A stretch of DNA of 64,000 bases from Desertimonas flava (lineage in GTDB: Bacteria; Actinomycetota; Acidimicrobiia; Acidimicrobiales; Ilumatobacteraceae): the NCBI RefSeq assembly GCF_003426815.1, contig NZ_QKYK01000014.1, forward strand, positions 1 to 64,000, written 5' to 3'. The position numbers and the translations under genes are program-made. Under the pieces are notes generated by a model. It had not been told where the DNA came from. It did not search any database and saw only the letters and a list, made by a program, of their open reading frames with translations. Positions 50,625 through 53,535 of this stretch are shown piece by piece (positions within the stretch are counted from its first letter, which is position 1; each line of letters begins with the position of its first letter).

Positions 50625-51263
50625 GTGAGTGCAGGTCGAGCAGGCGAGGTGATCGCCGTGGTGCTCGCCGCCGGTGGCGGCACTCGCTACGCCGGCCCGA
50701 CGCACAAGCTCGACGCGGTGGCCGACCCCGACGGGCGCACGGTCGCCCGCCGCGCCGTGGACGCCGCCCGCGAGGCGGGCATCGGCCCCGTCGTCGTCGT
50801 GACGGCCGACCACGTCCGCACCACGCACCCCGCCGACGTCACCGTCATCACCAATCCGGCCTGGAACCAGGGCCAGGCGACGTCGCTGCGCTGCGGCCTC
50901 GACGCCGCCCGAGCCGCCGGTGCCACGCGCGTCGTCGTCGGCTTGGGCGACCAGCCGGGGGTGACGGCCGAGGCGTGGCGCGCGGTGGCCGCGGCGGGAA
51001 CGGTGTCGCCGATCGCCATCGCCACGTACGACGGACGCCGCGGTCACCCGGTGTCACTCGACGAGTCGGTGTGGAGCCTGCTGCCGACCGAGGGCGACGA
51101 GGGAGCCCGCTCCCTGATGCGTCTTCGACCCGATCTCGTGCGTGAGGTACCGTGCCAAGGTTCCCCCCGGGACATCGACACGTTGGAGGATCTTCACCGA
51201 TGGCAGAACAGCTCGTCAACGAGTTCACCGTCAACCGCCCGATCGACGAGGCGTGGACCGTGA
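50625..51263 (+). CDS. MocA/MobA-like nucleotidyltransferase
   Basis: The 212-residue protein has the nucleotide-binding loop VVLAAGGGTRYAGPTHKLDA and VVVGLGDQPGVTAEAW, matching molybdenum cofactor cytidylyltransferase (MocA) proteins, which make the cytosine-dinucleotide form used by CO and xanthine dehydrogenases. The end DIDTLEDLHRWQ is typical; the last 20 residues after it overlap the CoxG gene. The start is GTG at 50625. With CoxG it forms a second island of maturation genes. Confidence 0.88.
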   Translation: MSAGRAGEVIAVVLAAGGGTRYAGPTHKLDAVADPDGRTVARRAVDAAREAGIGPVVVVTADHVRTTHPADVTVITNPAWNQGQATSLRCGLDAARAAGATRVVVGLGDQPGVTAEAWRAVAAAGTVSPIAIATYDGRRGHPVSLDESVWSLLPTEGDEGARSLMRLRPDLVREVPCQGSPRDIDTLEDLHRWQNSSSTSSPSTARSTRRGP

Positions 51264-51928
51264 TCACCGACGTCGAGCGCATCGCGCCCTGCCTTCCCGG
51301 AGCGCAACTCCAGGAGATCGAAGGTGAGACGTACCGCGGCGTCGTGAAGATCAAGCTCGGTCCGGCGACCATGCAGTTCAAGGGCCAGGCCACGTTCATC
51401 GAACAGGACGACCAGGCCCACCGTGGAGTGCTGAAGGCGGAGGGCCGCGACACCAGCGGCCGGGGCAACGCTGCGGCCGAGATCACCGCTCAGGCCGAGA
51501 GCCTCTCGCCCACGAGCACCAAGGTCGTCGTCACCACCGACCTCCACATCACCGGCAAGGTCGCCCAGTTCGGCCGAGGCGTCGTCGGCGACGTGTCGAA
51601 GAAGCTGATGGCCCAGTTCGCCACCAATCTCAACACGATGCTCGATGACCAGGGCACCGGCGATCCGGCACCGGCCGAGGAACCGGTGGCGGCCGCCGCC
51701 CCGTCCGCCGACGGCGACGAGGCGCCAGCCGCGTCGGACGCCGCGTCCTCCGGTGGCGATGCCGGGTCGACGGCCGCCGAATCGGCGCCGCGGGTGCGCA
51801 AGATCGACAGCCCGGCCACCGAGCCGGTCGACCTGGCGGGCGTCGGTGGACCGGCGGTCCTCAAGCGGCTCGGACCGGCCCTCGCGGCCATCCTCCTGCT
51901 CCTGTTCGTGCTGCGGCGGCGGCGCTGA
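51200..51928 (+). CDS. coxG: CoxG-like SRPBCC protein with C-terminal membrane anchor
   Basis: The 242-residue protein has a SRPBCC/CoxG domain (about 1-150): FTVNRPIDEAWTVITDVERI, CLPGAQLQEIEGETYRGVVK, KLMAQFATNLNTML. An Ala/Pro/Asp-rich linker and a C-terminal hydrophobic anchor (PALAAILLLLFVLRRRR) follow. CoxG anchors aerobic CO dehydrogenase to the membrane and links it to the quinone pool. GGAGG lies 10 nt before ATG 51200. The gene overlaps the end of the MocA-like gene by 64 nt. Confidence 0.92.
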   Translation: MAEQLVNEFTVNRPIDEAWTVITDVERIAPCLPGAQLQEIEGETYRGVVKIKLGPATMQFKGQATFIEQDDQAHRGVLKAEGRDTSGRGNAAAEITAQAESLSPTSTKVVVTTDLHITGKVAQFGRGVVGDVSKKLMAQFATNLNTMLDDQGTGDPAPAEEPVAAAAPSADGDEAPAASDAASSGGDAGSTAAESAPRVRKIDSPATEPVDLAGVGGPAVLKRLGPALAAILLLLFVLRRRR

Positions 51929-51991: not shown

Positions 51992-52900
51992 ATGAACAGC
52001 GACCGTGAACGCGTCGCGGCGTTGCTCGGCCGCGTGCCGGACGGGGACTTCGACGTCGTGGTACGCGATGCCAGCGGCGACCCGGTCGTCATCCGCAACG
52101 CACCTCTGCTCGCCGACGGCACGCCGATGCCGACTCGCTACTGGCTCGTCGGGCGCCGTGAGAACGTGGCTGTGAGCCGGCTGGAGGCGGACGGCGGTGT
52201 GCGCGCCGCCGAGTCGGCCATCGACCCCGCCTCCATCCGTGCCGCGCACGATCGCTACGCCGCCGAACGCGACGCAGCGGTGCCGCCCGACGCGGTCCAC
52301 CGGCCGAGTGGCGGCGTCGGCGGCACGCGTGAGGGGGTCAAGTGCCTCCACGCCCACTACGCCTGGCACCTGGCCGGTGGTGACGATCCGGTCGGCCGGT
52401 GGGTGGCCGACGAGCTGCGCGGCCGCCTCGACGTGACGCTCTCCCAGCACCGCGTGACCGTCCGTCACTTCGACATCTCGGCGACACTCGCGACCACCCC
52501 GAGCGATCTGCTCGCCGAGTTCCTCGGCGACGGCGACCCGCCCCGGCCTGAGGCACTCACCAACTGCCTCGGCACCGTCAGCGACGCCGTCGACGACCTG
52601 GTCCGCGATCACCCGGACGTCATCGGCGTCGACCGCGCGACGTTCCGCGGCGACGAGGCCTGGCACCTGGCCCAGGTCGAGCGGGGCACGACGGTCCTGG
52701 ACGAGGCGGTGGTGATCGATCGCCACGATCTCGAGGACCTGTTCCGCACGATCGTCGCCGAGACGCGCGCCGACCGGCTGCACAACCCGGCGATCGACCC
52801 GGCGCGAATCGACTCGATCGTGGCCACCTGCTGCGTCACACTCGGTCTCATGCGGCGCCTCCACCTGGACGCCGCCACCTTCTCCTCCAGGAGCGCGTGA
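51992..52900 (+). CDS. DUF501 protein fused to a Ppx/GppA-like C-terminal half
   Basis: The 302-residue protein starts as DUF501 (about 1-145): LLGRVPDGDFDVVVRD, PTRYWLVG, REGVKCLHAHYAWHLAGGDD. In most actinobacteria DUF501 is followed by a separate Ppx/GppA phosphatase gene. Here residues about 150-301 resemble the C-terminal part of Ppx (VTVRHFDISATLAT, DPPRPEALTNCLGTV, RADRLHNPAIDPARIDSIVA, LGLMRRLHLDAATF) while the N-terminal half with the nucleotide-binding and catalytic motifs is absent. It looks like a fusion after an internal deletion. Phosphatase activity is unlikely. Confidence 0.72.
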   Translation: MNSDRERVAALLGRVPDGDFDVVVRDASGDPVVIRNAPLLADGTPMPTRYWLVGRRENVAVSRLEADGGVRAAESAIDPASIRAAHDRYAAERDAAVPPDAVHRPSGGVGGTREGVKCLHAHYAWHLAGGDDPVGRWVADELRGRLDVTLSQHRVTVRHFDISATLATTPSDLLAEFLGDGDPPRPEALTNCLGTVSDAVDDLVRDHPDVIGVDRATFRGDEAWHLAQVERGTTVLDEAVVIDRHDLEDLFRTIVAETRADRLHNPAIDPARIDSIVATCCVTLGLMRRLHLDAATFSSRSA

Positions 52901-53535
52901 TGCTGCGACATCCGTCCGGGCGGCCGACGGTGCCCTCTCCCCTGCGCCTGTACGGCAAGCGGGTGCTGCTCCGACCACTCGTGCTCGAGGACTTCGGGGC
53001 ATGGCGCGAGGTCCGGGAGCACAACGAGTCGTGGCTCACGCCGTGGGAACCGCGTCGCCCTCTCCCCGAGTTCGACCCCACGTCGAACCGCAGCGCGTTC
53101 GCCGCGCGGTGCACCGCGCGCGACCGCGACGCCACCAACGGCCTGTCCTACGGCTTCGGCGTGTTCGTCGATCAGCGCTTCCGTGGCGAGGTGAACCTCA
53201 ACAACGTGCAGCGCGGCGCGGTGCAGACCGGCACGATCGGGTACTGGATCGACCAGCGCACGGCCGGCCAGTCACTCATCGCCGAGAGCGTCGTCGTGTT
53301 GGCCGAGTTCGCCTTCGAGACGCTGTGGCTCCACCGCTTGGAGATCTGCATCGTCCCGCGCAACCACAAGAGCAGGCGAGTGATGGAGAAGCTGGCGATC
53401 CGAGAGGAAGGGATCGCTCAGCGGCTCGTCGAGATCAACGGCGTGTGGGAGGACCACATGCGGTACGGCTTCACCGTGGAGGAATGGAATGAGCGCGCCA
53501 CGGAGTTGCGCGAGGCCTGGTTGATCCCTCAATGA
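52900..53535 (+). CDS. GNAT acetyltransferase (RimJ/RimL type)
   Basis: The 211-residue protein has the RimJ/L pattern: KRVLLRPLVLEDFGAWREVR, GEVNLNNVQRGAVQTGTIGY, WIDQRTAGQSLIAESVVVLA, FETLWLHRLEICIVPRNHKS (acetyl-CoA region) and MRYGFTVEEW. It probably acetylates a protein N-terminus (such as a ribosomal protein) or a small amine. ATG 52900 has AGGAG 6 nt upstream and overlaps the preceding TGA as TGATG. Confidence 0.92.
   Translation: MLRHPSGRPTVPSPLRLYGKRVLLRPLVLEDFGAWREVREHNESWLTPWEPRRPLPEFDPTSNRSAFAARCTARDRDATNGLSYGFGVFVDQRFRGEVNLNNVQRGAVQTGTIGYWIDQRTAGQSLIAESVVVLAEFAFETLWLHRLEICIVPRNHKSRRVMEKLAIREEGIAQRLVEINGVWEDHMRYGFTVEEWNERATELREAWLIPQ

Follow-up and report, generated by a model that had tools for sequence, protein, structure and literature searches.

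The gene at positions 51992-52900 of the window (the whole 64-kb stretch of Desertimonas flava DNA that was analyzed) almost certainly encodes, judging from its sequence, a DUF501 domain followed by the whole of domain II from a relative of the Ppx2-type exopolyphosphatases (Ppx). This predicted pseudoenzyme half is tied to DUF501 throughout the family Ilumatobacteraceae and is no relic confined to a single genome. The reading that we prefer, at a probability of ca. 0.6, is that the half serves as a folded, non-enzymatic partner domain of DUF501 that is under relaxed but real selection. The features of the locus are as follows.

50625-51263, plus strand: MobA-like NTP transferase gene, upstream (PF12804, E 9.9e-27)
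51152-51928, plus strand: CoxG-like gene, upstream (PF06240, E 9.5e-17); coordinates taken from the first GTG, and the true start may be further in
51992-52900, plus strand: DUF501-half-Ppx2 fusion gene, 302 codons and stop, ATG start
51992-52417, plus strand: DUF501 part, residues 1-142 (PF04417 at residues 24-139)
52418-52897, plus strand: Ppx domain II alone, residues 143-302, domain I being absent (VIA-align 2 and Ppx2 HMM)
52436-52459, plus strand: former DIGGGSTE phosphate loop, residues 149-156, now TLSQHRVT (alignment columns D134-E141)
52897-53535, plus strand: GNAT acetyltransferase gene, downstream (PF13302, E 1.9e-19)

The fusion protein passed the curated Pfam cut-off for DUF501 (83.2 bits against 23.8; E 2.2e-23), and the domain is present as a single copy in the genome. 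The conserved KCLHAH motif lies at residues 117-122 of the window protein; K117, C118, L119 and H120 were found in 112/112 acidimicrobial DUF501 sequences and in 26/26 others from the phylum. Two DUF501 cysteines that are common in the rest of the phylum (24/26 and 23/26) are mostly other residues in the Acidimicrobiia, the commonest being D (71/112) and G (90/112), with C118 and H120 kept throughout (112/112). The window has D26 (52067-52069) and G54 (52151-52153) in these columns, and a possible metal site of DUF501 may have been lost in the Acidimicrobiia.

The standard profile libraries alone left the identity of the C-terminal segment open, as its scores fell below their thresholds: PF02541 scored 14 bits at residues 239-299 (cut-off 27; E 0.034), and the NCBIfam exopolyphosphatase model TIGR03706 was likewise weak (E 0.006). 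A lineage HMM was built from 66 full-length Ppx2 sequences that adjoin DUF501 in relatives. This profile matched the window segment with E 4.6e-29 and all 46 distinct halves with E 2e-41 to 1.4e-13; the best of 46 reversed segments, used as a control, reached only E 0.09. The profile-profile match of the half with full Ppx2 had an E of 2.9e-38 and began at the strand that bears DIGGGSTE in the full-length protein. Once the lineage profile is used, the Ppx identity of the segment is certain, and the structural comparison agrees. An AlphaFold2 model of the fusion (70-row alignment) had a pLDDT of 96.1 and a pTM of 0.86. Structure searches with this model returned mostly Ppx matches, the best Foldseek matches in the PDB being Ppx/GppA proteins (E 6e-9), and VIA-align 2 placed residues 143-302 onto residues 135-297 of Aquifex Ppx 1t6d_B (Z 21.6, rmsd 1.6, 153 residues). 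A sequence search of the PDB with the window protein gave chance-level matches only; among plasmid records there were three matches, all to DUF501 alone and each spanning less than 80% of the query. The retained part is domain II, and the cut sits at the domain border. The sequence-only reading, which had described an in-frame joining of DUF501 to a Ppx half without the catalytic lobe, is thus borne out by Pfam, the Ppx2 HMM and the structure; residues 150-302, which it had assigned to Ppx and offered as a point of refutation, do match Ppx, but the Ppx part begins at ca. residue 143, in the first strand of domain II. The pTM only suggests a fixed arrangement of DUF501 and domain II in the model. 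For the full-length fusion at locus L077, the pTM was only 0.69 and the linker was floppy, so a tight contact between the two domains is not evident there.

Relative to full-length relatives, ca. 410-460 nt are missing. The ORF has no domain I, and with it P-loop 1 and the conserved Arg and Glu (R82 and E110 in L041, whose numbering is used for residue columns) are missing. Roles have been assigned to single catalytic residues in Ppx enzymes, and E110 is presumably the position of the catalytic Glu. For residue and profile counts, only distinct partner sequences were used; L110, L116 and L117 (cut by contig ends), L072 and L100 (contig ends before the partner), repeated sequences and, from the residue counts, a heterogeneous set of 10 additional sequences that included at least three Ppx1 pieces were left out. 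This gave 46 halves, 66 full Ppx2, 19 Ppx1 and 26 Ppx from the phylum that lie beside DUF501. The P-loop 1 motif was found in 57/66 full Ppx2 vs. 0/46 halves, and the DIGGGS motif in 64/66 vs. 0/46. The alignments show domain I to be missing at the domain border and the rest of the predicted ligand site to be gone; with domain I, P-loop 1 and the DIGGGSTE loop all missing, the known Ppx active site is impossible in the half. When all six frames of the 64-kb window were scanned with full-length and domain-I-only HMMs, no further Ppx piece turned up (next best E 0.09), so the missing half is not encoded in a separate frame nearby, an outcome that had been named as a possible refutation.

The gene order in the window, by Pfam, is MobA-like, CoxG-like, DUF501-half and GNAT; the stop of the fusion gene is overlapped by the start of the GNAT gene, and the G+C content by codon position in the fusion ORF (0.77/0.50/0.90) is of the coding type. 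The GNAT gene is a conserved neighbor that also occurs at L066, L104, L106 and L138, and the CoxG-like gene is a conserved upstream neighbor that is also found at L104 and L106. At L104 (full-length Ppx2), CoxG lies before the pair and an aminotransferase class V gene and GNAT lie behind it; at L138 (fused full-length Ppx2), MobA lies before and the same two genes behind. Halves are directly followed by GNAT at L106, where CoxG precedes, and at L066. The fusion locus and the intact two-domain form are in synteny. The aminotransferase class V gene was seen downstream of full-length Ppx2 at L104, L131 and L138 (before GNAT at L104 and L138), and none was seen between the half and GNAT at L066, at L106 or in the window; the family may have lost this gene as well.

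The window protein was matched in 181/200 genomes of the family and in 78/79 of the good ones. In total, 133 loci were read (53 from the genome set and 80 from named records, with some genomes in both). Separate genes with a full-length partner accounted for 51 of these, fused full-length forms for 20, separate halves for 25 and fused halves for 35; in the remaining 2, the contig ended before the partner. Measured from where DUF501 ends, the stop of the partner lay either 462-588 nt or 881-1221 nt away, the only exception being L110, which is cut by a contig end. In the 53-locus set, 39 genomes bear the half, either joined to DUF501 or encoded directly after it, and they span 15 of the 27 sampled genera (g1, 5, 7, 8, 10, 12, 13, 14, 16, 17, 18, 19, 20, 21 and 26). 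The same predicted half is thereby shown to occur across the family, and the change that produced it is old and shared. In 17/18 separate halves of the genome set, the start codon forms a 4-nt overlap with the DUF501 stop (the start codon nearest to that stop having been chosen); a small frameshift would thus be enough to join the two genes. Both fused and separate halves occur in g10 and g17, and both separate and fused full forms in g22; joining or splitting must therefore have occurred repeatedly. Two records titled Bifidobacterium breve (L096 and L112) carry acidimicrobial-type DUF501-Ppx2 loci; their nearest rows in the DUF501 tree are MAGs of Acidimicrobiia or Actinomycetota, and the record titles look wrong.

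DUF501 and domain II go together in the family. DUF501 was found in 177/200 genomes (76/79 good ones), and the domain II profile matched in 188/200 (78/79 good ones). A domain II match was present in 176 of the 177 DUF501-bearing genomes, counted per genome, with adjacency read in the fetched loci only; the exception was G148, where DUF501 lies at a contig end, and the match in G198 was weak (1.1e-5). Two good genomes, G071 and G106, had domain II without a DUF501 match; in each case a contig end coincides with the start of the Ppx gene. One good genome (G053) had neither. In several drafts (e.g. G085 and G173), domain II was matched weakly (E 3e-8 and worse) and DUF501 was not; these domain II matches were taken for Ppx1.

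Outside the family, the Ppx2 beside DUF501 is full-length. Because half genes lie in open frames of up to 359 codons in this G+C-rich DNA, distances were used rather than frame lengths. An order-wide draw comprised at least 118 genomes, from which those outside the family with DUF501 and domain II matches on one contig were counted (G200 and G223, with a domain II match only, were left out). The unexplained stretch between the DUF501 and domain II matches was 380-728 nt in 34/34 measurable order genomes listed outside the family, as expected if domain I is present; in the family member G009 it was 14 nt. In a phylum-wide draw of 70 genomes, the full Ppx2 profile was matched at full length in most, and, apart from short or broken matches (e.g. 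G340 and G352), the only good-scoring ones that started inside domain II came from three family members, namely G000, G012 and G018. DUF501 lay directly upstream in 26 of the 30 best Ppx loci from this draw, in keeping with the earlier statement that DUF501 and Ppx are usually separate neighbors; 6/38 phylum Ppx loci without an adjacent DUF501 were kept apart. As far as sampled, the half is a trait of the Ilumatobacteraceae.

The trees were compatible with more than one history. The DUF501 tree (112 rows, 148 columns), in which most deep forks are weak, needed 6 changes between half and full forms, and a single clade of all halves was not rejected on it (AU p 0.215). An RpoB tree of 35 genomes (made with a quick method, 9/35 rows being under half filled) needed 3 changes; in it, the nested full-length carriers G003, G005, G008 and G010, together with the half-bearing G006, split the halves. 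There may have been several losses of domain I, or fewer losses combined with transfer of the full gene.

Selection was estimated as omega by the Nei-Gojobori method on pairs hand-picked from close relatives, in which sequences were shared among pairs and some synonymous distances were near saturation. For domain II in 16 pairs of halves, omega was 0.10-0.95 (median 0.32) and lay below 1 in 16/16; for DUF501 in the same pairs it was 0.035-0.21 (median 0.09), and for the partner part of 8 full-length pairs 0.05-0.24 (median 0.11). At ca. 3.5 times the value for DUF501 and ca. 3 times that for full-length Ppx2, domain II is clearly less constrained, and the selection on it, as estimated from these sequences, appears to be purifying but relaxed. 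Such values would also suit a degenerating remnant, in which domain I has been lost and domain II is drifting toward loss while being carried by the DUF501 frame or the operon. A neutral simulation of a 156-codon frame, considering stops only, points the same way: at one substitution event per site, 14% of frames were still intact, and the persistence of an open frame in a single lineage therefore proves little. The weight for retention therefore rests on invariant residues and on the spread across genera rather than on survival of the frame. The half has been retained in 15 of 27 sampled genera; in 25/133 loci it is a separate gene, with nothing to force the frame; none of the 46 distinct halves is shortened; and the model has a pLDDT of 96. 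Seven residues are invariant in 46/46 halves, namely L189, E230, G232, R252, R262, P266 and R288 of the window protein (L041 L177, E218, G220, R242, R252, P256 and R278). A remnant, which the sequence-only reading had proposed as one outcome, is consequently unsupported and we regard it as unlikely; its other proposal, a new regulatory protein, is possible.

The invariant residues are of different kinds. R262 (L041 R252) is general, occurring in 18/19 Ppx1 and 25/26 phylum Ppx. E230, R252 and R288 (L041 E218, R242 and R278) were each found in 63/66 full acidimicrobial Ppx2, in 0/19, 1/19 and 0/19 Ppx1, and in 2/26, 7/26 and 12/26 of the phylum Ppx beside DUF501; from these alignments, they look like an acidimicrobial feature that predates the loss of domain I. 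With so few occurrences in the phylum set, a universal DUF501 interface formed by these three residues was unsupported. The invariant residues could be a local core, rather than an interface.

In Ppx enzymes, domain II contributes half of the ligand cleft, and its fold is kept in the half. It could then be supposed that domain II binds a nucleotide, an alarmone or polyphosphate without hydrolysis and thereby controls DUF501. The window protein is the one copy of 46 that keeps L041 R262 (its R272), a residue found in 66/66 full Ppx2, 19/19 Ppx1 and 26/26 phylum Ppx; it is also the sole copy with A in place of G at L041 G257. The other cleft residues tell against such a sensor. In the halves, D134 is kept in 4/46 and G137, G138, E141 and G209 are each kept in 0/46; all five are present in 19/19 Ppx1 and 26/26 phylum Ppx, and in full Ppx2 they are present in 66/66, except for G138 (64/66). 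The opposite wall of the cleft, domain I, is missing as well, and a ligand sensor seems distinctly improbable.

The half might instead be one subunit of a split enzyme, its counterpart being a domain I or a full Ppx produced from another locus. The search of the D. flava genome for another full Ppx, which had been proposed as a check, yielded one, full-length with domain III, on contig 47, and a PF02541 match better than 1e-20 was found in 12 of the 39 half-bearing genomes (G000, G004, G006, G013, G019, G025, G037, G038, G049, G054, G065 and G087). However, the other 27, which include the one-contig genome G018, gave no PF02541 match better than this threshold, and the half is thus unlikely to need another Ppx. 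A Ppx1 query likewise found no match in 9/41 relatives, each of which carries the half; two of them, G011 and G018, are one-contig genomes. Moreover, the scan of the 64-kb window revealed no lone domain I, and the half of the site that lies in domain II has itself been lost. A split enzyme is thus very unlikely, and the notion that the half is the dependant of some other Ppx was judged unlikely because half-bearing genomes without one exist. Several large genomes of the family (G007, G009, G011, G012, G015, G016, G017, G018 and G020) seem to be without any full-length Ppx/GppA, and many small ones carry Ppx1 as well as Ppx2; the way in which polyphosphate is handled may vary with lifestyle in the family.

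A sequencing, assembly or frame artefact is refuted in practice, since the same cut recurs in 39 genomes of 15 genera, including the one-contig genomes G018, G037 and G011.

The reading of the half as a partner domain of DUF501 draws on the confident domain II fold, the profile match of all 46 halves, the kept residues and the co-occurrence in 176/177 genomes, as well as on the repeated joining and splitting, the 27/39 genomes without another strong Ppx and the omega below 1 in every pair. It is weakened by domain II omega values as high as 0.95, by the restricted occurrence of E218, R242 and R278 (L041) in the phylum and by the floppy linker of L077. If it is correct, DUF501 and Ppx2 would act as a complex in Actinomycetota, as their neighboring genes and repeated fusion suggest, and domain II would be the lobe that DUF501 needs. 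The phosphatase or ATPase activity would have become dispensable in the Ilumatobacteraceae, and domain II would have stayed as the partner of DUF501, perhaps through a surface that includes E230, R252 and R288. More tentatively, at somewhat short of even odds, the locus may be a natural domain deletion, in which the phosphatase lobe of Ppx2 was removed in one family and the other lobe stayed tied to DUF501.

Among known systems, the nearest are Ppx2 and Ppx-GppA proteins (PF02541; Rv1026, Aquifex 1t6c/1t6d and Bifidobacterium 3cer). The half shares their domain II fold (Z about 21) and occupies the same position behind DUF501 as the full-length Ppx2 of relatives, but it is without domain I, P-loop 1 and the DIGGGSTE loop and scores below the Pfam cut-off. 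With DUF501 proteins (PF04417; Rv1025, cgp_1113 of C. glutamicum and a gene reported as essential in C. diphtheriae), the window protein shares the full domain, the KCLH motif and the single copy; it differs in bearing a C-terminal Ppx lobe and, like other acidimicrobial copies, in being without the two phylum cysteines. Fusions of DUF501 with full-length Ppx2 in other Acidimicrobiia (20/133 loci, e.g. L077) have the same order of parts in one frame; unlike the window gene, they retain domain I and the phosphate loops. In PMC9846249, FtsB of M. smegmatis is described as fused to DUF501. There, too, DUF501 is fused to the product of an operon neighbor, although the partner is a divisome protein before DUF501, whereas in the window it is a Ppx lobe behind it. 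In published work on DUF501, Rv1026 and Ppx-GppA, covered mostly by title and with few subscription journals, no truncated Ppx-DUF501 fusion was recognized.

According to PMC3411833 (Choi et al.), Rv1026 had no detectable exopolyphosphatase activity, no pppGpp hydrolysis and a modest ATPase activity. PMC10166564 reports the DUF501 gene to be essential in C. diphtheriae, in C. glutamicum and, as Rv1025, in M. tuberculosis, and one of its figure legends gives enolase, Ppx/GppA and DUF501 among the neighbors of ftsB homologues. These reports of essentiality and of proximity or fusion to ftsB suggest that the DUF501-Ppx pair may serve growth or division in some basic way.

If the domain-deletion reading is true, the conserved job of the Ppx2 beside DUF501 in Actinomycetota would be, at least in part, to lend domain II as a binding partner, a role that does not require the hydrolysis of polyphosphate or alarmones. 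A lobe of an actin-like (ASKHA) enzyme would then have become a free-standing non-enzymatic domain. DUF501 is without an assigned function, though PMC10166564 reports it to be essential, and its Ppx2 neighbor can lack polyphosphatase activity (Rv1026, PMC3411833). A lineage that discarded the catalytic lobe and kept domain II would provide a ready-made separation of functions. The fusion, as a single-chain, confidently predicted protein, is suited to structural and binding work, and the half indicates which lobe of Ppx2 DUF501 might require.
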